Source: Parietichytrium sp. I65-24A (taxonomy: Eukaryota > Sar > Bigyra > Thraustochytrida > Thraustochytriidae). Taken from it: a stretch of DNA of 64,000 nt. The position numbers were made by a program, and so were the translations under genes. The notes under the pieces are model-generated. The model had not been told where the DNA came from and did no database searches. It saw only the letters and a program-made list of their open reading frames with translations. Position 1 is the first letter of the stretch. Every line of letters begins with the position of its first letter. This document shows, piece by piece, positions 1-51,039 of this stretch. The stretch lies in assembly GCA_012862575.1 (NCBI GenBank), contig BLSF01000081.1, positions 1 through 64,000 on the forward strand, in the 5' to 3' direction.

Positions 1-3000
1 AACACTGCGCTGACTTGGTTAAAGTACGTGTGACTTTGACACCGGTTTGGTGACATTTTTAGCACTCTACTAAAATTTCTCGGACTTGGTGGCTGCTGAA
101 CACCTCGCTAAACCTGGAACGTTCTTGATCTTGACTGACACACTCGTTTCTGTCTTTTCTCAGTCTTGAGGTGAATTATCTTGAAGTGTCATCTAAAGTA
201 TACGTCGCAGCTCGCGCACAAATTGACGTTAAAGGTGTGACTGACAGCAAGGATGCAAGGGTTCAAGCGGCGCGAGCGCATGGAGTGGAGGCACGTTCAC
301 TCGAATTGGCTCCTTGCGATGTTCCCGAAGAAATTCTAAGGCAAGATTCAAGCGTGGACGCCACCAACACTATTAATTATTTGCAAGGCATTTTGTACGG
401 AGATGAAGCTGTTCACCAGGTGAAGGTGCTGCTCATCGGCCCGCAGAACGTAGGCAAGACAACGTTACGAAACGCGCTTAAATCTGGTGGGAAACACGCG
501 CAGCCAACCAAAGCGAATCATGCCTCCCGAGCAACTATCAGCGTGGACGTGGACGGTATCACATTTAACTTCCTCAAGCCCAAGAAGAAAAAGAAACTTG
601 TTTCAAAAGTTGCGTCCTTGGGACTCGCTCTGGTGTCCAAAAGCGCTGCAATTGAGAAAAGAGCAACGCAATGAACAATGAGGGATCCGCCAAAATTGTT
701 TTGATGGACTTTGGCGGGCAAGAAGAGTACTACATGACGCATACTTTCTTCCTCTCCAACCGCAGCCTGGTCATGGTCGTGGTGGATCTGCAGGTATATG
801 AGAGCACAAACGCCAAGTTTGAGGAATGCGCCGGTCGCTGGCTTCGTGCGCTTCAGATGCAAATCTTTCGGCCAAAAGTTGTGCTCGTGGGGACCAAATG
901 CGAGGGACTTACGTCCAAGGAAATCAGAGATAAAATGAAGGACCTGAAGTCGCGCGTGGACCAGCTCGGCATACAGGTTAGAGAGACGATCTCGCAAACT
1001 AGAAATGAGGCTTTTTCCAGTGAGTTTCAAGGGCTGACGTTCACTGAGCCCCGGTCTTTTGTTGTGAGCGGCACGGACATGAGAGCAGGCGACAAGGTGT
1101 CCGCGCTTTACAAATTTTTGTGTGACTTGGCGACAGACACAAGTAAAGGTATCGCGCTCCGAGTTCCGAAGGAATTCGAGCAGATCCGAGAAATCGTCCA
1201 ATCTTCTCACGAGAACATGCTGGATGCGTCCGGAGTTTTCTCAAAATTCGTGCAGGTAACTTCAAAGGAGGAGTCGGAGGAGAAAATGAAAGTGACTTCA
1301 GAGGGGGAGTCAGAGGAGAAACTTCAAGTCAAGTTCAAGTCTGCGCTGAGACTGTTGCACGATCTTGGCGTCCTGTTGTGGTATGGCGAAAGCAACGAGC
1401 TGTCCGATGTGATCTTTCCAGATCCATCGTGGGTCATCGAGGTGGTGCGCCAAGTGATCAGGCACGACCTATTTGAAAGGCGAGAGGGGGACATCAAGCA
1501 CGGGGCGTTGTACGACTCCAACATGTCAGCGGAAGGTGACGTTACAGAGCTGCAAGAACTGCTACACACCAAATGCATCCTGGACGAGCGCCTGCTGGAA
1601 TGTTTCCCCATCTGGCGCGATATGCCCAAGAGACACTTTCGGCGATGCTGTGAGCTCCTGGAGCAGTTCGAGTTGATGTACAAGCTCAAGTCTGACGAAG
1701 TCGACCTTGCGCACAAGAGGTTCATGGTTCCGGCGTTCTTGCAGGCAGGATTTGCACGAAATAGGTTCCCAGGCAAGGTAGTTCTCGACGATCGTCAAAA
1801 TGTGGTTAAGCGCAAAAGCAAGCGCATTAGCATTCCCAAACTCATGCGCCCGTCATCGCAAAAGGAGCCGATGCACTCCATTGTGTCAATATATGACTTT
1901 CCCGTGTTTCTTCCGGACGGGCTTTTGTACCGACTCATGGCGCGGACGTTCCGCGTGGCAAACTTGTACGAGCTCGGAACCGACGTCGCTCTCGGTGCAT
2001 ACACACCAACTCCCGATGTCAACGTGCTCGCCAAACTCGAAGCAACGAGGAGCCCGGATGGGCATGGATCAATCCAGATTTCTTGCTCGGCGAGTTCAGC
2101 GAATGCGCCTCCCGAGCTCGGCAACACTCACTCTCTTCTTGAGTACGAGCTACAGCAGCTTATGTCGGAGTCCTTCTCACGAGTGCCGTACAAGGCAACC
2201 AAGTATGAGTCCTCAAAGCAGGCCTCAAAGCGAACGTCTCTCGGCCGCGAAGGTTCGCTCCAGGCTGTGGAGCCTATGGAGCCCGCGAGGACAAGTAAAA
2301 GGTTCTCAAAGAGAGTGTCATCCAAGGCCAAACGGCTGGGGAGTTTTATGTCGACCGAAGACAAGGATTTTTCATGCTTTAAAAACGTGGGAGACAGTGA
2401 AGACTTTATCTTTAGACGCGTTCACGATTTGCGCGACCGGTGTTATTTCAAGAGAATCTCGCTTTTGGCAATCGAGCATCAGCTACCTCTAGGCCAGAAG
2501 AACTTTGATGACCTCGTGTTCGTGGGAAAGTCTGTGAGGGGTAAGCTAAAGAGAATCTTTGGACTCTCCACGGACGACCTGCACGATGACGACCCACTTA
2601 AGCTGGAACTCGCTCATATGGACCAGGCGGCGGAAAATTTTGATGATTGGCGTCTTGCGGAAGCAGAAGGGTTCATCAAACTGGTGCGTCGACTTGTCAC
2701 CAGACTTCGCATGCAATTCGACGCGTTCCTGTCGCATGACTGGGCAGAAGACCGGCTCGGCCGCGACAATCACAAGCGAGTCTGCAACATTGCAAAACAC
2801 TTGAATGAGAAATATGGCATCAAGTGCTGGCTCGACGCTCAGCGGATGCGAGTCGGTGGGGACCTGGAGGACCACATGAGTGATGGAATCTTGGGCTCGC
2901 AGTGCGTGATCGTGTGTGTGACGGCGAACTATGTGGAGAAAGTGTACAAGCGCTCAAATTCCGACAATTGCCGAGCCGAGTACAAGTATGCAAACTCGAT

Positions 3001-3232
3001 GAAGGACGCTTCGGCAATGATTGCCGTCGTCATGGAGCCAAGCGTTTCCGATCCTCGAACCTGGTTCGGGATGATGCGTGTTGCTGGACAGTTATATGGC
3101 GATTTTTCCAAAAGTGATGACGGGCCCGGCCTGACAAGCCTGGCTAGTAGAATACTGGAACTGAGCTTTCCATTCGAATCTGTCGAATTGCGCGAGCAAC
3201 TTCTCCAATTGTATCCAGGTGATACTCCGTAG
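1..3232 (+). CDS. LRR-ROC-COR-TIR protein (ROCO family), 5' partial, with one frame break
   Basis: Large multidomain signalling GTPase of the ROCO type; it continues left of the window. Bases 1-23 encode the end of a leucine-rich repeat (NTALTWLN), followed by an intron (24-163) and an exon starting at 164 that restores the LRR frame (LEVNYL). The Ras-like ROC domain follows, with P-loop GPQNVGKT near 450, switch motif DFGGQ near 705 and VGTKCE near 890 in the guanine-specificity position. A COR-like region follows (about 1300-2100), then a basic Ser/Lys-rich stretch, and a C-terminal TIR-like domain (FDAFLSHDW near 2716; NCRAEY near 2965, whose Glu is a candidate NADase catalytic residue). 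The frame changes between the part ending at 674 and the part opening at 656: one missing A in the A4 run 657-660 would join them. Known: ROCO proteins are intracellular GTPases. Inferred: innate-immune-like or scaffold role. Domain calls are firm, the exact gene model is not. Confidence 0.8.
24..163 (+). other. Intron in the LRR-ROC-COR-TIR gene
   Basis: The donor GTACGTG at 24 follows an LRR-coding end. The acceptor is a pyrimidine tract ending TTTTCTCAG at 163. Removing these 140 nt joins AA|T into Asn in phase 2 and restores an LRR reading (LTWLNLEVNYL). The first half of the intron (GTACGTG, then TTTGACACCGGTTTGGTGA) is repeated almost exactly after another LRR exon on the minus strand near 14011, which supports it as a true intron. 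Confidence 0.7.
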
Positions 3233-8638: not shown

Positions 8639-11600
8639 ATGGCTAAAGGAAAGAAAACGAACCCTGGCTCGACTCCGGCCACGCCTGTGGCACTACAGCA
8701 ACATGACATGCTCGAAGAGGACGCTCATTCGGTCACATCAGTCATTCGTCAAGAAGGAGTCACCTTCAAGCCCACCATGCCTGTCTTCTCCGGTAAAGAT
8801 CATGACTGGGCTTACTTTGAGACCGACCTGAAGGCGTTCGCTTCCTTTCACGGAGTGAACCTCGATGACTCTCTCTCCCTCCAAGAGGAGAACATGATTC
8901 ACATCATGCTCACCTCTGCAATCCCGCGAGAGCTCCGAGACATCCTCATGCGAGACAACGAAAAAGGTCTCGGCTCCATCGCCTGGAGCAATTTACGATC
9001 TGACTTCGGGCAATCTACTCGCCAACGGCAATACGACCTCTACGTCGAGGCCGCTTCTCTCAAGCCCTCTGACAAGTCGCTCGCTGGTGTCAAGCGCTTC
9101 TGTGACCAAGTCCACGTCAAGACCCAACAATGGGTTCAATTCGACCTCGATCCTTGGGTGCAAGCCACGCTATCCACTCTCGGCACCGTTCGCTCCACTT
9201 GGCCTGAACTTGAGGTCCAGGTTTGCGCTCTCCTCGCCCGATTGCACTCCTCCAAAGACGACAACGGAGATGAGCTCAAGGGGCGACCTCTCTTCAAGTT
9301 TGCCATGAACGAACTCAATTCCATCGTGCAAACTGTTCAAAAGAAATCGCCCTCTGTTTCCCCAGTATTCGCCTATTCTAATGCGCCCCGCAAGAAAGCT
9401 GGCGGCAAAAACTCCAACAAAAAGCAGAAGGAGAACGACAAGCGTCAGAATGGCGAGTGTTTCGGGTGCTCAGGCAAACATTCTCGTCAAGAATGCCCGT
9501 ACAAGAACTCAACTTGCTCCAACTGCAAGCGCCGTGGTCATATCGCTGAACATTGCCGATCCAGGGGTAAAGTTGGTAATCCGGAAAAATCCTCCCGGCC
9601 AATCTTCTCGCTGCTGCCCCTAGCAGCACTCGAGCCGAGCAACTCACCAGCAGCCAATGTGGTAGCCAACCCTCTCCCTGTGTTTTCTGCTACTGCACCG
9701 CTCTGCTCCTCGCGCACTGTCATCCTTGACTCAGGCGCAGGATGCACTCACTGCCCGCACCTTGATCTCTTCGACCAGTCTTCCTTGCGGCAGTCAGAGC
9801 AACAAAGTGTCACCGCTGATGGCACTATCATGAAATCGTCAACCACTGGCCGTCTCATGATCCCACTACGCACTGCACAAGGCGCGAAAATCTTCCTCGC
9901 AATAGATGATGCACTTTACTCGCCATCTGCCCCAGCCATCCTACTCAGTTTCAACTCGCTACTCGCGAAAAACTACTCCATTACGGCTCATGGCAGCAGC
10001 TGCACTGTCCAGCTCAATCAGCATGACTCCCTCTCATTCGGTCTGCATCGCTCGCTCTCGATCCTCTACATGCCTGTAGATGATAACTCAAGTACAAGGG
10101 TAGGCCTACAAAGCCCTCTCACCCTTCTATCTGGAAGGCAGCCTACGAGTCCTATGCTTCACCGACGCCTTGCTCACCTTGGACGCACCAAGATTGACAA
10201 AACTCTTAAGGCAACTGACCACAATTACGGATCGCCATACAAGGTACCTGAATGTGGAATCTGCGCGCAAGCCAATTTGCCGCGCGAGTCGCAGCCTCAC
10301 GGTGAACATAATGCTCGGGCCACACAACCGGGACAAGTCGTTTCTGGTGACATTGCCGGACCGTTTAAACCTGGTAAAGACGGTTTCGCTTACGCATTCA
10401 ACTTTGTTGATCTCTTCTCCGGCCTGCCCATCACCATTCTGCTCCGCTCTCTCACTCAAGCGGACATTGCAGATGCCATCGAACAAATGCGGCGCCGATG
10501 GCACAGCGGACTCGTTTCTCCACCGGAGAACTGTGTTCTGTACCTGGACAACTTCAGTTCATTCCACTGTGACAGTGTCACTCAGCTGGTTCATGCATGG
10601 GGTTGGAGTACGCGCTTCTGCACTCCGCATGCTCATGCAAGCCACCCCAGCGAGCCTCTCAACAAGACTCTGCTCCGCATGTGCAGGGCCATGCTGCTCG
10701 ACTCTCAACGCCCTGTCACCTCCTGGTCCTCAGCGTATGAATACGCCTCCTACATTCTTGCACGTACTGTGCCCACTCGCGGTTCCAAGACTCCGTTCGA
10801 GCTCCACTGCGGCACAATCCCGTCGATCGCTCACATCAGGCGCTATGGATGCCTGGTGTTTACCAAGCAGCAAGACAAGGGCTATCCCAAGCTCAAGCCG
10901 CAAGGCAAAGCCGCGGCATTCTTAGGTATCGACCCGCTCTACCCACACGGGACATATACCCTTCTCAACCTCGAGACTCAGCGAATCATTCACTCTTCTG
11001 ACGTCCATTTCATGGAAGATATCAACGCTAGTCAATACTGCTCCACCGCAGATTTATTGGATCATCTCGCGCGACAAGATGCCTCTGCTTCTGACTCTGA
11101 CTCTGACTCCGAGTCCATCGACTCCGACGGTGTTGCGCCTGCGGAGGTGCCTGAACTCCAGGGTCATAAAATGGAAAGCGCTCCTGCAGGTCCTTTTACC
11201 CTCCAAGACGACGGCGAGCTCGTCGACGTAGATGCGAACCCAACTGCACTCTTCGCTGCAGCACTTGCATCATACCGGGTTCATGTCAGTCCGGAGGTGG
11301 CTGAAACATTAACTATCCCCAAGTCCTTCGCTGATCTGCGCTCTCTGCCAACCTTACATTTTGAACTTTGGTCTTTAGCAATGACTGAGGAGGTTGATCA
11401 CCTCACGCAACTCGGGTGTCTCCAACCATACTCAGCCACGGAGGTGAGAAATATCAAACACAAGACCATCATGAGTTCACGTTGGCTGTTCAAAATGAAA
11501 TCAACAGATCTACGACTGCGTGCGCGGCTCGTGATCAGAGGTTTCCTCGAGCCTGTGTCAAAGGCGGATACGTTCTCTCCAACCGTCAGCAAGACGGCCG

Positions 11601-12853
11601 TACGTATTGCAACAGTCATCGCCCTCTCCAAAGGATATCAACGGACTCAGTTCGACGTGGTCTCAGCATTCCTCCACGCGCCAATCGATGGCAATCTCTT
11701 CATCAAAGCCCCTCAAGGAGTGCCTGGAGCAGCACCCTACTATAAGCTGACCAAGTCAGTATATGGGCTCAAATCCTCGCCTGCCCGCTTCGCGGCTCTT
11801 CTAACCGACATCTTTGTCAAGCACTGCAGTCTCACCCAGTCCGTTCACGACGCATGCCTCTTCTACGGCAAAGACCTCATTGTTCTAGCCTACGTGGACG
11901 ACATCAATGCCTTTGGAACAACTCAGTCTATCGATGCTCTCCTCTCCAACGTGAGAGCTCAAATCGAAATCAAGGTTGTTGACACCAACTCATACCTCGG
12001 CTCCGAATGGGACTACAATGTGGACAAGAATACCTGCCGCATCACGCAGAGCAAGTATATTGAGGATCTGATCAAAGAGCACGGAATGTCTCATGCCAAG
12101 CCTTGCTCCACTCCAATGGACCCAAAGCAGCGTCTGATCCCTCTTGACCAACCTGAGCAATTTGTTGGTTATCGTCACATAGTCGGTCAGCTCATCTACC
12201 TGCTTGAGACGCGACCAGACCTCTCCTTCGCTGTTCACAGTCTCGCTTGTTCCATGCACGCTAACGGTGAAGGCCACTACCGTGCTGCTCGCAAGGTGGT
12301 CAGATACCTGGCCGGAACCAAAGACCTGGGAATTACACTTCGTGGAGTCGCCGACCCCAACTCCTTAGCAGTCACGGTCTACAGTGACGCTTCTCTCGGG
12401 CATCAACAGGCCTCGAAGTCTACGAGCGGTTTCGTAGTCTTCCTCGGATCCTCGCCGGTCCACTGGCAAACCAAACGCCAATCTCTCGTTGCCACTAGCT
12501 CTACCGCAGCAGAACTCATTGCTCTCAGCCACGCCATGGATGACGCACGTTTTGTCCAAGCCATAGCACTCGAACTCGGAGTCCGGAATAACTTTGAAGT
12601 ACTGGCTCTCACGGACTCACAGGTCTCAATCGCGGTCCTGAATCGCGAAGCCCCCGCGCGTGCAAATCGCTACATCAACTTCCGTCTGGACAAACTCTCT
12701 GACCTTATAGCGAGAAAGCAAGCCCTACTCGAGTACATCTCTACCGATAGGCAGGTTGCGGATGCTCTAACAAAGCAATTGAGCTCTGGCCCTCATACTG
12801 AACACTTTAAAAAGATCATGGGCAATTATGACAGCAAGCTCACGGAGGTGTAG
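8639..12853 (+). CDS. Copia gag-pol polyprotein, 1404 aa
   Basis: The ATG at 8639 opens a single 1404-codon frame. Gag occupies roughly residues 1-260, with two zinc knuckles at about 273-308 (CFGCSGKHSRQEC, with three instead of four residues before the His, and the canonical CSNCKRRGHIAEHC). The aspartic protease has the DSGAGC motif near 365. Integrase shows the N-terminal zinc site (HRRLAH...CGIC, about 507-545) and core Asp and Glu positions (GDIAGPF; YLDNFSS; a Glu in SHPSEPLNKT). Reverse transcriptase covers about 945-1190 with YVDD near 1084. RNase H follows (YSDASLGH near 1249, STAAE, LTDSQ). Gag and Pol are fused with no frameshift or stop between them, so the Gag:Pol ratio must be set another way. 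The TAG stop forms the first three bases of the 3' LTR. Confidence 0.97.
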   Translation: MAKGKKTNPGSTPATPVALQQHDMLEEDAHSVTSVIRQEGVTFKPTMPVFSGKDHDWAYFETDLKAFASFHGVNLDDSLSLQEENMIHIMLTSAIPRELRDILMRDNEKGLGSIAWSNLRSDFGQSTRQRQYDLYVEAASLKPSDKSLAGVKRFCDQVHVKTQQWVQFDLDPWVQATLSTLGTVRSTWPELEVQVCALLARLHSSKDDNGDELKGRPLFKFAMNELNSIVQTVQKKSPSVSPVFAYSNAPRKKAGGKNSNKKQKENDKRQNGECFGCSGKHSRQECPYKNSTCSNCKRRGHIAEHCRSRGKVGNPEKSSRPIFSLLPLAALEPSNSPAANVVANPLPVFSATAPLCSSRTVILDSGAGCTHCPHLDLFDQSSLRQSEQQSVTADGTIMKSSTTGRLMIPLRTAQGAKIFLAIDDALYSPSAPAILLSFNSLLAKNYSITAHGSSCTVQLNQHDSLSFGLHRSLSILYMPVDDNSSTRVGLQSPLTLLSGRQPTSPMLHRRLAHLGRTKIDKTLKATDHNYGSPYKVPECGICAQANLPRESQPHGEHNARATQPGQVVSGDIAGPFKPGKDGFAYAFNFVDLFSGLPITILLRSLTQADIADAIEQMRRRWHSGLVSPPENCVLYLDNFSSFHCDSVTQLVHAWGWSTRFCTPHAHASHPSEPLNKTLLRMCRAMLLDSQRPVTSWSSAYEYASYILARTVPTRGSKTPFELHCGTIPSIAHIRRYGCLVFTKQQDKGYPKLKPQGKAAAFLGIDPLYPHGTYTLLNLETQRIIHSSDVHFMEDINASQYCSTADLLDHLARQDASASDSDSDSESIDSDGVAPAEVPELQGHKMESAPAGPFTLQDDGELVDVDANPTALFAAALASYRVHVSPEVAETLTIPKSFADLRSLPTLHFELWSLAMTEEVDHLTQLGCLQPYSATEVRNIKHKTIMSSRWLFKMKSTDLRLRARLVIRGFLEPVSKADTFSPTVSKTAVRIATVIALSKGYQRTQFDVVSAFLHAPIDGNLFIKAPQGVPGAAPYYKLTKSVYGLKSSPARFAALLTDIFVKHCSLTQSVHDACLFYGKDLIVLAYVDDINAFGTTQSIDALLSNVRAQIEIKVVDTNSYLGSEWDYNVDKNTCRITQSKYIEDLIKEHGMSHAKPCSTPMDPKQRLIPLDQPEQFVGYRHIVGQLIYLLETRPDLSFAVHSLACSMHANGEGHYRAARKVVRYLAGTKDLGITLRGVADPNSLAVTVYSDASLGHQQASKSTSGFVVFLGSSPVHWQTKRQSLVATSSTAAELIALSHAMDDARFVQAIALELGVRNNFEVLALTDSQVSIAVLNREAPARANRYINFRLDKLSDLIARKQALLEYISTDRQVADALTKQLSSGPHTEHFKKIMGNYDSKLTEV

Positions 12854-22475: not shown

Positions 22476-24749
22476 TCACTCCCCGATTCCACTAGACGAC
22501 GATGACGAGTGTGACGAAGAGCCACCTTCTTCAGAAGCAGAATCATCTTCAACCTCCTCGCTTTCACTTGTGTTGTCTCTAGGTGTGCCATCGCCGCTGC
22601 TCACACTTTTACTATCGCCATCAACTTCCCGACTTGCAAGAGATGATGCATCTTCGTCTTCGTCGTCATTGTCATTGTCATCGTCATCGTCATCGTCATC
22701 TTTTTCAACCTCCTTGGGCGAATTGTCTCCGCCTCCTTCGGAATCTGAACTCTCAGAGCCAGAGCTGTTTTGACTCACAGAGTCGCTTTCTGCAACAGAA
22801 TCTGGAACACCTTCCTCTCCTGTAGTAGGTAAGGCTTCGTCTCCTCCGTTCTGAGTAAAACCTGGCGCTGCACTTACTACCAAATTGCCTTGGTTGGGTG
22901 ATACTTTGCTCAAGAGATGTGTTTCCATCTTAATATTCTCTTCGGTATTATGTGTAGGCGCCGTCAAGCCATTTGAATTTTCCTTCTGACCGTTGGTGAC
23001 TGGTCCGTCATCTTGGAGTGTTGCTGTCTCCTTGCTGTTGGATGCCTGCAATCCCTGTGACTCACCGTGAGGATTGGGAGAAGCTGGTCCTCGCGACCCA
23101 TTGCTACTGGAGCTATCTTCCCCGGTGGCAACTTTCTCATTCCCCGATCCGATCACTTGGCGCTCAAGAAAATCCTGGGCCACCTCAGGCTTTATCGCCA
23201 TAGTGCCTTGTTGGTCGCCTTCCGTTTCCTGAAAACCACCTTTGCCATGTCTCTTCTCCATTGTCTCAGCGCTAGCTTGACTTCTCATTTCCGTGTTTGG
23301 AACCTTATCACTAGTAGTTTGTCCGTCGGTGATTGCCTCTGCCCCTCGGGTGCCTTGCAGTTCTTCGGAATCTCCCTGCACTGTCTCACAAGTCGTGGGC
23401 TTTCTTCGCCGATTCTGTAGTGTGTTTAAAAAAGCAGTACCAGCAGACAAAAGCTTTCGTTGCATTCGCTTCACCAAGCCCTCGTTTGCACTTGTCGATG
23501 GCTTGGTCGCGATTGATCGATTACCAACTGCACTGGCATTTTTCCCGTCCTCATCTCCATCATCGCTATCCGACAGATTGTCAATGCCGCTCAAGTAGCT
23601 CTTTGGCTCTCCGTCCCTCTCGCGCGTCCCTCCGGCGTCAGCTGTGCTGGACTCCTCGTCAAAATAATTTGGAGACATGGCTTTACTTGGAATGCTCAGC
23701 GAATCGCTCGCAGAATCCGGAGGACTGCCACCTTCTTGGTCCAATGGCGCGAGAGCCATATCACCTGCCTTTTCATTGAACGTTGCGTCTTTCGAGCCTG
23801 CATCAAATTGGTCATCATCCTTGCTGTCCTCACTAGCTGCTTCCGCCACCCTGTTATGATCTCTCGTCCCCTTGAGATTACGCTCTTCCGGAGTTTCATC
23901 TGCGATATCACTTGAAGAATCTGTATCCGAAGAATCGGTTTCCGAATCGGAGACCAATGTAGAGGGTTTCACTACTCTTGCTGAAGAATGCATGTGTTGC
24001 GAGCTCTGGTCAACTGATGATCCGCCCTCCTCAACGTCGTCCATGGTTCCCTCGCTACTTTGGACTGTTATCTCACTATCCTCCGCCAAGGCCATGTCCC
24101 CGCCTAGGTTCCACTTTCCAGGTCCATTGTGCTTTGAAGCAACCCTTCCGATTGCGTAGATTATGCGCGCGTGCTCCACCTTGGCATCCTGCAACCGCTT
24201 GTGCGAGGCGTGAATTCTTTCCTTCACGGATTCTTCCCAGACGTGTCCTGTGGCGATCTGACGTAATTGCCTCTTGGCTTCTTCACGAGCAACTGCCTCT
24301 AGCAATAAACGGAAAAGTCGTCCGTCCGTTTTGAAAGCATGTTGAAGAGCACTATCCTTTCTGTTGCCGAGCGTTGCATGAGGGCTCGCACCAGCCTGGA
24401 TGAGCCCGTCCACGATCGCCTCGGCGTCATCGGACGCTTTTAAATTCTCCCAAGCAGCTGCTACCTTCAAAAGTATCTCAGTACAGCACTCTGAGGGCTC
24501 CGCATCCACTCCATTTCGGATGCACAGCTCGACTACGTCTTTCCGCCATGCCTTAAGCGCCATGCTTCGCCCATCGCTCAGCAGCCTCCGCTGCAAAACC
24601 CTCGCCGTCAGCAAAACCAACACGCCAAAAACCACAAATGAAAACAAATCTGGGGACCACGCACCTCTTCTCCCAAAGCCTCCGAACCCTTGCTCTCGTC
24701 TACCATCGATTCCTGGCGCATGGCGTCTTGATCGTCCAGTATACGCCAC
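22476..24749 (-). CDS. Acidic, Ser-rich membrane protein of unknown function, start unresolved
   Basis: No family recognised. The frame is open for 757 codons. Near its N-terminus is one hydrophobic segment (DLFSFVVFGVLVLLTARVLQ, about residues 34-53) followed by basic residues, then a helical region to about residue 215, then about 540 residues of low-complexity Ser/Glu/Asp/Asn-rich sequence ending in an acidic Asp/Asn/Glu block and a Ser tail. The frame begins at GTG 24749, preceded by an in-frame TGA; the first in-frame ATG is codon 63, which would remove the membrane segment. So an upstream exon or a base error is likely. A nearby out-of-frame ATG (24764) gives only 19 codons. A CTAACCTAACCTAA motif lies 95-108 bp upstream. 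Confidence 0.65.
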   Translation of the reverse strand: MAYTGRSRRHAPGIDGRREQGFGGFGRRGAWSPDLFSFVVFGVLVLLTARVLQRRLLSDGRSMALKAWRKDVVELCIRNGVDAEPSECCTEILLKVAAAWENLKASDDAEAIVDGLIQAGASPHATLGNRKDSALQHAFKTDGRLFRLLLEAVAREEAKRQLRQIATGHVWEESVKERIHASHKRLQDAKVEHARIIYAIGRVASKHNGPGKWNLGGDMALAEDSEITVQSSEGTMDDVEEGGSSVDQSSQHMHSSARVVKPSTLVSDSETDSSDTDSSSDIADETPEERNLKGTRDHNRVAEAASEDSKDDDQFDAGSKDATFNEKAGDMALAPLDQEGGSPPDSASDSLSIPSKAMSPNYFDEESSTADAGGTRERDGEPKSYLSGIDNLSDSDDGDEDGKNASAVGNRSIATKPSTSANEGLVKRMQRKLLSAGTAFLNTLQNRRRKPTTCETVQGDSEELQGTRGAEAITDGQTTSDKVPNTEMRSQASAETMEKRHGKGGFQETEGDQQGTMAIKPEVAQDFLERQVIGSGNEKVATGEDSSSSNGSRGPASPNPHGESQGLQASNSKETATLQDDGPVTNGQKENSNGLTAPTHNTEENIKMETHLLSKVSPNQGNLVVSAAPGFTQNGGDEALPTTGEEGVPDSVAESDSVSQNSSGSESSDSEGGGDNSPKEVEKDDDDDDDDNDNDDEDEDASSLASREVDGDSKSVSSGDGTPRDNTSESEEVEDDSASEEGGSSSHSSSSSSGIGE

Positions 24750-35438: not shown

Positions 35439-38036
35439 TTAATGCGAGACGTCGCAAATAGTTCCAATTGCAGCGTTTCGGTGGGTCGTTGAGCCCACCT
35501 TATCTGAATACAGAGGAGAGATGGAGCGCAAGCGCTTCTCGATATAATCTTCGGAAAAGTGATGCTGCTTTGCCCCCTTGATGATGCAGTTACGGTACTG
35601 GCGAGACGGCCTGAATCGACGGTACTTGCCGCCAATGTCCTCGCCTGGCATCTTGTACTGCACGCGGTATGTGACGCAAGGGTACAGATTTCCCTGGCGG
35701 TCAGCAACGTTCACCGTGATGGGAGTGACGTGGCTCTCCTCAGTGGCTGCGAGGTTGTGTCGGTCCAATAATTCGCGCTGCGACTTGCTCACTCTGTATA
35801 CCACACCCTGAACGTAGCCACCACGCTTTTTGTAAATGTCCGCCACACCGCTCTTCCAGACCTTTTTGCTGAAATAAGTGTAGTCGAAGCCATACCCAGC
35901 GAGCTCGGCATTCACGACCTTCTTGGCGCTCGTGATACCACTGACGTACAGAAGTTCGTAGAGCATATCCGGGCCATATGCAAAGTATAAAAAGTAGTCC
36001 CCAGTTCCATCAATCGTAGCTTGGTCCAAGTTTTGAACGAGAGGAGTGTGCACTCCCCCTGCAGTCTTTGCAAAGCGGAGGGCGTTGGCCACATCGTTTC
36101 TGCCCTCGGAAAATGGCGTTTCGTCCTCCAGCTCAGCGCTAGTGCTAAAGCTCGATCTTGAGCGAGAATGCGAATGTGAAGAAGAGGAGGATTTGGATGC
36201 AGACATCCCCCTCGCAAATCGTCGTGAGAGCTCGAGGTCTTCCGAGGCATCGTCGCTCTCAAGCTCCGTGAGAGCTTCGTTGTTCATCGACTGGTGCTCC
36301 TCCCGCTGAAAGCCTTGTGAGTCCTCGGAATCTTCGTCATCCTCCATCTGAGTTTCGGGATCACCTTCCTCCTCTGACTCCTCTTCGTTGTCGTCGTCGT
36401 CGCGAGAAGACGCAAACGAGTTGTCTTCGTCATCCTCAGAATCATCTTCGCTCTCCCCGAATCCGCGCACAGAGTCTTCATCTTCGTCTTCGCTGTCGTC
36501 ACCACGGACCATGTCATTGGAATCTTCGTCGTCTTCGTCATCGGATTCCATAGCAGCCACTGGCTCTTCCTCTTCCTCAACTTCAGCAGGTTCCGGCTCA
36601 CTGCCGGCGTTGCACAAAGCGTTCTGGTGGCGACCGCCTTCCTCGGCGAGGTGCTTGCCAAGGGCAACCACACCTTTGGTGATCTCCCGGGATCCAATGA
36701 GCAGGTCTCTCTCAGGAATCTCAATCATTTTTTTCTCGCTGATAATCACCTTGGTGACCTTCTTCCTCTGCTTACTGGAAGGATCTGGGGATGCTTGAGC
36801 CGCAGAGAGGGTGTATGCCAGATTCAATCCAAGCGTGTTTTGCGCCCAGTGAATGGCGTAGTCGTCGGAGTGGATTTTGCTGTGCTTGATAGGCTTGAGG
36901 TTGTAAAAGAAGTTGAACGAGTTGACAATCTTCATCTCGCGGGCAATGGCTTTGCCCACCTCCTCTTGCTCTTCCAAAGCATCTGAGTTGATGCAGGTGG
37001 CGTTCCGTGGAGCGGCGACAGAAGTTCCGCAGCACTGCACATTGACAAAAGCAGCCACATTTGCCTTTGACTTCAACTCTTCCACGTACGAGCGGATGGC
37101 CTTGGTCTCGGTCTGAGAAAACTGGGCCCAGTCCTCGCGAAGATCAGCTCCCTTAATAGAGCTGTGCCTGCGAATAGGGGCGCGATTCTTCGTGTAATGC
37201 CTAGCGTCATGGGATTTGCCGGTCACCGAATAAAAGGCGCCATCAGGATTCACGTATGGGATGACGTGCATCTTGACGTTGTCGAGAACTTGGGTGACGT
37301 CCTCATTAATACCGTAGAGCTGTACCAAGCGAGTCACAAGGTACGTCAAGTACACAGGGACTGACCACTCGCATCCATGTTCGGATCCCATGACCACAAT
37401 GTGTTTCTTTGCGGAGCTCTTTCCGATGACATAAGACCGCATCTCCCTGTTTTCATAGGTCTTGCCAATCGTGGTAGACTGTATAATACCCAGCGACTTG
37501 TATTTGGACTCGTACGTGGAGATGAACGACTTGATATCTTCCTCGTATTTGTATGTTTCGAAGAATTTTGTGAAGCTAGCTTTCATATCAGTCTGTCGCG
37601 ACTGCTGTTCTGCCTTGAGAGCATTTGCCATGCTCATACTAGAGCTACTGCCGCCTGCCTCCTCGTCTTCGTCTTCGTCGTCCATTTCCCCACCGCGACC
37701 ATTTTCATCGTCGTCTTCGTCCTCATCCTCGCCGAATCCGCCCTTCGAGTCAGAGTCGTCGTCCTCCTCATCGTCCTCAAACATGAGCGCACGGCCGCCG
37801 CCGCCAAGTCCATTAGAGTGAATCACAACCTGCGTGGTCTCTCCCGAGTCGGAGAGCGAGAACGTGGCAATAATCAGCAGAAGCAGCAATGCAGCAAAGT
37901 ATCCAAGTCTGAGCCTCCCTTCCCTTGAGTTGGGATCAAACTTGCGTTTCACCGTCACACTGAAAAAGATCAACAGCTGCGTCTTGAACCTCGACAGCGC
38001 GTCTCCGCCCGCCTTCTCTTTCTCCAAGTCCCCCAT
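35439..38036 (-). CDS. Membrane M14 carboxypeptidase-like / GGCT-like fusion, probable double pseudoenzyme, 865 aa
   Basis: Start chosen at ATG 38036 (MGDLEKEKAGGD). A type II-like anchor lies at residues 44-62 (LGYFAALLLLLIIATFSL), then an acidic Asp/Glu stretch. Residues about 165-415 match zinc carboxypeptidases: GSEHGCEW (zinc ligands H220, E223), VIPYVNPDG, HYTKNRAP. But the third zinc His position reads VNVQCCGTS (no His), and the catalytic Glu position reads LAYTLSAAQ (no Glu). An acidic/Ser linker (480-640) follows. Residues 681-848 match gamma-glutamylcyclotransferase: FLYFAYGPDM, VQGVVYRVS, PSRQYRNCIIKGAK, but the catalytic Glu of the LDxxEG motif is Asn (LLDRHNLA, N761). Both domains therefore look non-catalytic; binding or scaffold functions at a membrane are more likely. 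Alignments are by eye. Confidence 0.78.
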   Translation of the reverse strand: MGDLEKEKAGGDALSRFKTQLLIFFSVTVKRKFDPNSREGRLRLGYFAALLLLLIIATFSLSDSGETTQVVIHSNGLGGGGRALMFEDDEEDDDSDSKGGFGEDEDEDDDENGRGGEMDDEDEDEEAGGSSSSMSMANALKAEQQSRQTDMKASFTKFFETYKYEEDIKSFISTYESKYKSLGIIQSTTIGKTYENREMRSYVIGKSSAKKHIVVMGSEHGCEWSVPVYLTYLVTRLVQLYGINEDVTQVLDNVKMHVIPYVNPDGAFYSVTGKSHDARHYTKNRAPIRRHSSIKGADLREDWAQFSQTETKAIRSYVEELKSKANVAAFVNVQCCGTSVAAPRNATCINSDALEEQEEVGKAIAREMKIVNSFNFFYNLKPIKHSKIHSDDYAIHWAQNTLGLNLAYTLSAAQASPDPSSKQRKKVTKVIISEKKMIEIPERDLLIGSREITKGVVALGKHLAEEGGRHQNALCNAGSEPEPAEVEEEEEPVAAMESDDEDDEDSNDMVRGDDSEDEDEDSVRGFGESEDDSEDDEDNSFASSRDDDDNEEESEEEGDPETQMEDDEDSEDSQGFQREEHQSMNNEALTELESDDASEDLELSRRFARGMSASKSSSSSHSHSRSRSSFSTSAELEDETPFSEGRNDVANALRFAKTAGGVHTPLVQNLDQATIDGTGDYFLYFAYGPDMLYELLYVSGITSAKKVVNAELAGYGFDYTYFSKKVWKSGVADIYKKRGGYVQGVVYRVSKSQRELLDRHNLAATEESHVTPITVNVADRQGNLYPCVTYRVQYKMPGEDIGGKYRRFRPSRQYRNCIIKGAKQHHFSEDYIEKRLRSISPLYSDKVGSTTHRNAAIGTICDVSH

Positions 38037-48704: not shown

Positions 48705-48801
48705 TTCCCCGGCTCTTGCGGTCCACGGCAAAAGCACGCTTCTTGGCCCCACTCAGTATGGCACTGCAAAGCTACGAATCCGGTCTGCTGCTCGTCAGTT
48801 C

Positions 48802-49696
48802 NNNNNNNNNNNNNNNNNNNNNNNNNNNNNNNNNNNNNNNNNNNNNNNNNNNNNNNNNNNNNNNNNNNNNNNNNNNNNNNNNNNNNNNNNNNNNNNNNNN
48901 NNNNNNNNNNNNNNNNNNNNNNNNNNNNNNNNNNNNNNNNNNNNNNNNNNNNNNNNNNNNNNNNNNNNNNNNNNNNNNNNNNNNNNNNNNNNNNNNNNNN
49001 NNNNNNNNNNNNNNNNNNNNNNNNNNNNNNNNNNNNNNNNNNNNNNNNNNNNNNNNNNNNNNNNNNNNNNNNNNNNNNNNNNNNNNNNNNNNNNNNNNNN
49101 NNNNNNNNNNNNNNNNNNNNNNNNNNNNNNNNNNNNNNNNNNNNNNNNNNNNNNNNNNNNNNNNNNNNNNNNNNNNNNNNNNNNNNNNNNNNNNNNNNNN
49201 NNNNNNNNNNNNNNNNNNNNNNNNNNNNNNNNNNNNNNNNNNNNNNNNNNNNNNNNNNNNNNNNNNNNNNNNNNNNNNNNNNNNNNNNNNNNNNNNNNNN
49301 NNNNNNNNNNNNNNNNNNNNNNNNNNNNNNNNNNNNNNNNNNNNNNNNNNNNNNNNNNNNNNNNNNNNNNNNNNNNNNNNNNNNNNNNNNNNNNNNNNNN
49401 NNNNNNNNNNNNNNNNNNNNNNNNNNNNNNNNNNNNNNNNNNNNNNNNNNNNNNNNNNNNNNNNNNNNNNNNNNNNNNNNNNNNNNNNNNNNNNNNNNNN
49501 NNNNNNNNNNNNNNNNNNNNNNNNNNNNNNNNNNNNNNNNNNNNNNNNNNNNNNNNNNNNNNNNNNNNNNNNNNNNNNNNNNNNNNNNNNNNNNNNNNNN
49601 NNNNNNNNNNNNNNNNNNNNNNNNNNNNNNNNNNNNNNNNNNNNNNNNNNNNNNNNNNNNNNNNNNNNNNNNNNNNNNNNNNNNNNNNNNNNNNNN
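48802..49696. other. Assembly gap of 895 N
   Basis: Unknown bases. The right edge is a 7-bp tandem repeat, so the gap is probably an unresolved repeat array. Open frames across it are artefacts. Confidence 0.99.
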
Positions 49697-49745
49697 GAAG
49701 ATTGAAGATTGAAGATTGAAGATTGAAGATTGAAGATTGAAGATA
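49697..49745. repeat. GAAGATT tandem repeat at the gap edge
   Basis: Six perfect GAAGATT units plus a variant GAAGATA, directly adjoining the N run. The array probably continues into the gap. Confidence 0.9.
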
Positions 49746-51039
49746 GGTCGGGAAACCTGGAACCTGGAACTTTAAACCGGGGAGACACGGCACGACGCCG
49801 TTCAAATTGCCGTGTTCAAAAGTAAGCTTCAGGGTTCTCACTCACTCTCGCACTGACATTGCGCCAGTGTCTTGGTCGGACGTCTCTCTGTGCGGAGCTG
49901 TCATCGTTGTGTTTCTCAGCGTTGCATGGGCTCGCATGGTTTTCTGACTTTCTTACTATCAAGGATAGATTTCTCATCCACTTTCAATGTTTTTCAACAA
50001 TTTATTGAACAAAAATCATTCCAATCTCGAAAGAAAGGTTTTGAATGAATAATGAATGATTTCAATTTGAATGAAAATGAAAGGAAAAGAAGAGATGGCA
50101 GAAACAACCAACGAACCTCAGAACCATCTTGCGACTGTGCAATGCAGAGTCTAAGGACCATCATCAAATACTTACAATAGTCGCTAGACAAAGATCATAT
50201 AGATGCCACTCTGCTGTGTTAAAGTACCATAAAATGCCAACTGCCACATACGGCTATTTCCTATGGGAAGGAGTAGCACTTACGTAAGTAGATGATGGAC
50301 TTCATGCTAGGAGAAAAATCGACTGGCTGGTGTGGTGCCTAAGGGGTTATTACGAGACCATTACAGCGAATTGGTGGCAAGCAAACAGTGAGACAACAGT
50401 GCTCGCCTACCAATCCTCTCTCTACTCTATCCTATCTTCCCGCTACTTCTCCGCTATCCGCCTCTACCACCTACTCCTACGTTTGTATGAACACAGGTAG
50501 CGATGGTAAGGACTGCTACTGCATCTACGGCGGACTGTTAGCCGCCTGGCTATGCACCACCATAAGAGGCGTGATTATTATGGGAATCACATCACTGTCA
50601 GTACCGAAGTATCGCATCGGGGTAATGCTAGTCGCGTCACTATCTCTTGGCTGCATTGATTAGTTAGAACAGTGTTATAGATTGTAGTAGGTAGAGGAAG
50701 TGGAAAAGCAAACTCACTCACTTTCTGTCTCTGTCAATGTCAATGTCAATGACAGTGACATTGACATTCACTCATTCATTCATCAGTGAACACAGTCAGT
50801 GAACGCAGTCAGCCACAGAGGAAACAGAAGCAGCAGCCAATTGCGAAGGACGTGCGTCTGTTTGTGTTTGTGTCTGTTGTGTGTGTTTGTGTGTGTGTGT
50901 GTTTGTTTGTGCGGCAGTCCAAGTTGTGCGTGGCGTCGGCGAAGGTTTGCGTTGGGATAGGTATCGGTGGATAGATCTGCGGCGGCGGTGCCGGCGGCTG
51001 GCGTTGGATCGCGAGGACACTGCGCGGGGGTTATCACAC
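49746..51039. other. Spacer upstream of spermidine synthase
   Basis: About 1.3 kb. An open frame at 50388-50663 has no family resemblance. It contains an inverted repeat at 50736-50768 and a GT-rich run (about 50872-50912). It presumably includes the spermidine synthase promoter and 5' UTR. Confidence 0.55.
50736..50768. repeat. Perfect inverted repeat, 13-bp arms
   Basis: AATGTCAATGTCA (50736-50748) and TGACATTGACATT (50756-50768) are exact reverse complements separated by 7 nt. The left arm is part of a TGTCAA hexamer repeat. It lies 272 bp upstream of the spermidine synthase ATG. Confidence 0.8.

Follow-up and report, generated by a model that had tools for sequence, protein, structure and literature searches.

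A membrane-anchored fusion of M14-like and GGCT-like domains lacking essential catalytic residues in a thraustochytrid genome

We analyzed a 64,000-nucleotide stretch of the thraustochytrid Parietichytrium sp. I65-24A (contig BLSF01000081.1, positions 1 to 64,000; hereafter the window) and found that its gene at 35439..38036 on the (-) strand encodes a membrane-anchored protein joining a carboxypeptidase-like M14 domain to a GGCT-like domain, with residues essential for catalysis lost, as judged by alignment, from both active sites. The anchor, the two predicted enzyme folds and the losses recur in every full-length family member found. Because the same fusion has been kept in several relatives, the protein is probably a device for binding or holding rather than an enzyme.

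Two enzyme folds and their active sites

The coding region is an uninterrupted frame of 865 codons from ATG with no internal stop, and in the 42.5-Mb assembly (172 contigs, the window lying in the one we call C81) its sole full-length match is the gene itself. The carboxypeptidase fold (M14 A/B) occupies about residues 150-470 (36627..37589, (-)) and is matched by Pfam M14 over residues 171-413 (E=3e-26) and, in a PDB sequence search, by carboxypeptidases within about residues 141-410 (best E 6.3e-11). The GGCT fold occupies residues 675-865 (35442..36014, (-)), where Pfam AIG2_2 matches residues 742-834 (E=3.9e-11) and human GGCT matches residues 680-847 (best E 9.9e-12). The only other Pfam entry listed at E<=10, GGACT (E=0.0037), was under its own cut-off, and the list holds neither a discoidin nor a transthyretin-like domain, the companions seen in animal M14 pseudopeptidases. 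NCBIfam matched no family.

For the M14 site we use carboxypeptidase A (CPA) numbering and the positions H69, E72, R127, N144, R145, H196 and E270, which are used in a review of pseudopeptidases (PMC11266112, Table 2), with N144 added after PMC7706225. The genome contains 14 M14 matches including the fusion gene, and six A/B-like paralogues among the other 13 (L008-L013) served as controls; five look intact at the positions shown, the exception being L012 on contig C91. In the fusion protein, an HxxE remnant, H220-E223 (37368..37379, (-)), retains the equivalents of H69 and E72, with Q334 (37035..37037, (-)) in place of the remaining zinc ligand, H196. R71 is replaced by C222, R127 by T282, N144-R145 by R300-E301 (37134..37139, (-)) and the catalytic E270 by S411 (36804..36806, (-)), the last in a key strand where L008 has Glu. 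The zinc-His motif reads VHCC in L008, L010, L011 and L013, IHSY in L009 and VQCC in the fusion, the V-x-C-C pattern being common to the fusion and five of the six paralogues, and all five intact-looking paralogues have Glu at the S411 column. Since these paralogues show His and Glu at the two columns, misalignment does not explain the absence of H196 and E270; the same alignment ruled out residue 410 as the E270 column. Between L008 and the fusion, HGRE becomes HGCE, WRKNRR becomes YTKNRA and LNRN becomes LRED, and some 20-30 residues are deleted after LREDW.

These replacements extend through the family, for which we count nine full-length members including the window protein, or ten when P0009, a 343-residue fragment of the GGCT end only, is added. 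H69 is kept in five of nine members and E72 in eight, while H196, R127 and R145 are kept in none (0/9 each) and N144 only as the Asn of P0008. The E270 column holds Glu in P0005 and Asp in P0006, both of which lack H69 and H196, and the M14 part contains no invariant His. Judged by these columns, the M14 part has lost residues essential for catalysis and fits the description of an M14 pseudopeptidase, an M14 fold with its catalytic residues substituted.

For the GGCT site, the ten members were aligned with residues 15-172 of human GGCT and with a lone GGCT-like paralogue from the same genome. The acid/base of human GGCT is Glu98 (PMC7022552), to which N761 (35754..35756, (-)) corresponds in both this alignment and the PDB sequence search; the column holds Asn in seven members, Gln in two and Ala in one, with no Glu (0/10) and no invariant acidic residue near N761. 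The gamma-glutamyl-binding loop, YGSNL in human GGCT, is altered to Y687-G-P-D-M691 (35964..35978, (-)), with the YGS of the substrate loop no longer complete; P689 takes the place of Ser24, a column with Pro in nine members and Thr in one. The equivalents of Tyr22, Gly23 and Tyr139 of the pocket (Y687, G688 and Y814) are kept in all ten, Y814 lying in a family signature, P810-S-R-Q-Y-R-N-C817 (35586..35609, (-)). The Tyr105 column shifts with the alignment and was not used. The GGCT part, on this alignment, has likewise lost residues essential for catalysis.

The initial annotation had described a membrane protein with two apparently dead enzyme domains, M14-like and GGCT-like, lacking the third zinc His and the catalytic Glu of the former and carrying Asn for the catalytic Glu of the latter. 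Pfam, the PDB search and the paralogue alignments together bear this out, and its numbering of H220, E223 and N761 was correct. The observation is stronger than first claimed because it holds across the family.

Conservation, anchor and topology

Relatives were sought with the M14 part (three found), the GGCT part (eight, all with M14 and AIG2_2) and a joined profile (18: the same eight full-length proteins, P0009 and nine with M14 and no AIG2_2 listed). Limits on candidate length and a requirement for shared short words may have hidden other architectures. The same fusion is present in eight of eight full-length relatives found. The active-site loss recurs among the relatives found and so goes beyond accident or drift within a single genome. 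The named relatives, Mucochytrium quahogii and Hondaea fermentalgiana, are both Thraustochytrida, and the family is probably one of labyrinthulomycetes. Scans of prokaryotic and viral contigs for the joined M14 and GGCT profile gave 22 and 26 hits to the patterns, and tblastn confirmed none of them, a weak negative given two short peptide patterns per scan. A 17-row tree of M14 domains groups the nine fusion members in a single clade (support 100/99), with no paralogue clearly nearest to it.

Conservation is tightest at the GGCT end, with 50-69% identity to the window protein against 29-60% in the M14 part and 19-50% in the tethers. Among the ten members, 44 GGCT columns are invariant, of which 20 agree with the aligned human fragment and 24 with the lone paralogue. 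Invariant residues that differ from human GGCT include D690, K728, S729, R807, R812, R815 and C817; C861 lies past the end of the aligned human fragment.

The N-terminal tail (residues 1-43; 37908..38036, (-)) is basic and presumed cytosolic, with a helix predicted at residues 11-32, and over residues 11-43 it is 61-70% identical to five of the eight relatives. The membrane anchor follows at residues 44-62 (37851..37907, (-)). Its equivalent is the strongest hydrophobic stretch near the N-terminus in all nine members, and the flanking charge, positive on the N side and neutral or negative on the C side (9/9 each), fits a type II orientation. The tethers, residues 67-137 (37626..37838, (-); 38% D/E) and the acidic/Ser-rich residues 471-674 (36015..36626, (-); net charge -57), are extreme for the window, reaching 60% D/E over 60 residues when the next highest of its 19 ATG-started open reading frames of at least 250 codons reaches 48%. 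The anchor and acidic/Ser linkers of the initial annotation are supported. Six Cys after the anchor are kept in nine of nine members, one of them, just past the M14 part, in slightly shifted columns. The motif N345-A-T-C348 (36993..37004, (-)) combines one such Cys (9/9) with an N-glycosylation sequon (5/9), and the pair 817/861 also occurs in the lone GGCT paralogue. The topology, the Cys pattern and the sequon together suggest that the protein is type II and faces the lumen or the cell exterior, with both domains outside the cytosol and away from tubulin tails. No other gene in the genome matched this N-terminal anchor region (E<=1).

The GGCT domain is basic in all ten members. An idea based on charge, with acidic tethers and basic domains, was weakened by the paralogue control.

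The lone GGCT-like paralogue is encoded on contig C67 by a 287-codon open frame from GTG (48909-49769; L006/L026) and has a hydrophobic stretch (by eye) before the domain, Lys at Glu98 and the two Cys that it shares with the fusion. On contig C91 (100400-105428), L008 and L012 form a divergent gene pair within about 5 kb. L008 is an intact-looking carboxypeptidase with a C-terminal hydrophobic stretch (by eye); in L012, also M14, the hydrophobic stretch (by eye) is N-terminal, a long acidic region is present, and Arg stands for H69 and Lys for H196, with Glu kept at E270. A PAN-like domain considered for L012 was dropped, being absent from the Pfam listing. With the C67 protein and L012, M14 or GGCT folds beside a membrane anchor and without a full active site are not confined to the fusion.

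Elsewhere in the window, a protein encoded at 22476-24749 (-) has a hydrophobic stretch at its N-terminal end (by eye) and a C-terminal part that is long and acidic/Ser-rich (at most 48% D/E over 60 residues). A 1404-codon open frame at 8639-12853 (+) resembles a Ty1/copia-type retrotransposon polyprotein from motifs seen by eye, and the C-terminal part of an 853-aa frame at 671-3232 (+) resembles, also by eye, a TIR domain. Low G+C at about 48800-49700 is explained by a run of N, either a gap in the assembly or a masked region.

A binding role and its alternatives

A binding role for the fusion is likely on these sequence features. To the more specific proposal that it is a non-catalytic tether, scaffold or sorting factor of the surface or endomembranes, type II and single-pass, we give about an even chance. 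The folded parts would lie in the lumen of the secretory pathway or at the cell exterior, where long, flexible acidic tethers would hold them and disulfides would stabilize them; part of the family would also be N-glycosylated. The GGCT-like end may be the main working part, though this is less certain, acting through a re-tooled face whose conserved stretches are Y687-G-P/T-D-M, W727-K-S-G and P810-S-R-Q-Y-R-N-C; candidate partners are anionic polymers, proteins and the acidic tether of the fusion itself. By analogy with known M14 pseudopeptidases, the M14-like part may be a protein-contact module.

Several observations weigh against this proposal. Organism names are available for only two of the eight full-length relatives. 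P0005-P0007 have not conserved the N-terminal tail (13-33% identity over residues 11-43), and P0005-P0008 lack the N345 sequon. Nor does basic charge set the dead M14 domain apart, as two of the five intact paralogues, L008 and L010, are as basic. The structure model of the full-length protein is weak (predicted local distance difference test, pLDDT, of 56) and gives no basis for judging inter-domain contacts; since its residues 266-306, the region with the R127, N144 and R145 positions, fall under pLDDT 50, those three replacements rest on the sequence alignment.

The part of the initial annotation that fared less well is its suggestion of a receptor or reader for gamma-glutamyl, polyglutamyl or C-terminal residues. 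The GGCT fold, its basic charge and the retained Y22, G23 and Y139 equivalents speak for such a role. In carboxypeptidases, R127, N144 and R145 grip the C-terminal carboxylate of the substrate. Both arginines are gone from every full-length member and the Asn from all but one, the gamma-glutamyl loop has lost Ser24 throughout, no member has Glu98, and the predicted location outside the cytosol would keep both domains from glutamylated tubulin tails. We consider a glutamyl reader improbable. It is somewhat less doubtful, but still unlikely, that the fusion regulates or partners active membrane carboxypeptidases, its dead M14 domain pairing or competing with intact paralogues. Some pseudoenzymes do control active cousins (PMC11266112); the genome offers candidates in its five intact-looking A/B-like proteins, some with hydrophobic anchors by eye, and the C91 paralogue without two zinc ligands sits near an intact one. 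However, the M14 domain is the less conserved part, and the GGCT end would be poorly explained.

Hardly different in its low probability is a role in secretory sorting, as a module that converged with part 2 of the Paulinella chromatophore transit peptide (crTPpart2). That peptide shares the GGCT-like fold, and the proteins carrying it are thought to travel the secretory route (PMC12176269), but it is N-terminal on imported proteins whereas the GGCT-like domain of the fusion is C-terminal. That one or both domains remain enzymes through other residues is less probable again. The H220 and E223 equivalents do occur together in five of nine members, P0005 and P0006 have an acidic residue at the E270 column, and ChaC2 stays active with one of two Glu changed, showing that not all GGCT-fold enzymes are inactivated by the loss of one Glu (PMC7022552). 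Yet equivalent Glu mutations abolish the activity of GGCT and ChaC1 (PMC7022552), and the family offers neither an invariant His in the M14 part nor an invariant acidic residue near N761. The degraded active sites might also point to a decaying gene or a gene-model artefact, which the stop-free frame, the eight relatives with the same fusion and the many invariant columns make very hard to credit.

Significance and comparison with known systems

One speculative history, which we hold to be a long shot, is that labyrinthulomycetes exported the GGCT fold to the secretory side, stripped it of catalysis to make a binding or sorting module, and fused it once to a dead carboxypeptidase. If this were true, the fusion would be part of a group-specific machinery such as the bothrosome or ectoplasmic net, and, with the Paulinella transit peptide, the GGCT fold would have been recruited more than once for protein handling. 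A 2025 proteome study of the ectoplasmic net, made with the laboratory thraustochytrid Aurantiochytrium limacinum, left its candidates largely uncharacterized, and its main text makes no mention of carboxypeptidase, glutamyl, M14 or AIG2 (PMC12221091). Aurantiochytrium limacinum is open to transformation. As that study selected proteins that lack high-scoring homologues elsewhere among eukaryotes, an M14-domain protein could have been filtered out. A clam-parasite transcriptome paper reports serine carboxypeptidases and mentions neither M14 nor glutamyl (PMC3986615). The fusion offers labyrinthulomycete cell biology a conserved membrane protein as a concrete target.

M14 proteins without activity have precedents; what appears new is a dead GGCT joined to a dead M14, with the GGCT end the more tightly conserved. 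As the initial annotation had supposed, the fusion seems undescribed: titles and abstract openings among the matches listed from the open-licence literature hold none, a weak negative with subscription journals and preprints mostly outside. Known M14 pseudopeptidases include AEBP1, CPXM1, CPXM2, CPD domain III and yeast Ecm14; those named in the review come from vertebrates and, in one case, from yeast (PMC11266112). They resemble the fusion in having, on the secretory side, an M14 fold whose active site is incomplete, and CPXM2 has the same H69, E72 and Q196 (PMC11266112, Table 2). Their companions are discoidin, transthyretin-like or pro domains, in contrast to the GGCT-like domain and acidic tethers of the fusion. 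Compared with human GGCT (C7orf24) and AIG2_2, the fusion lacks Glu98 and Ser24, has two family Cys, is joined to M14, and is membrane-anchored and presumed extracytosolic. The Hondaea fermentalgiana "Carboxypeptidase A2" and the Mucochytrium quahogii "Peptidase M14 domain-containing protein" are relatives equal to it in length and architecture. Both are named as peptidases, yet both lack H196, R127, R145 and the GGCT Glu98, and the Hondaea protein (P0004) also lacks E270, so that the activity implied by the name "Carboxypeptidase A2" is unlikely.
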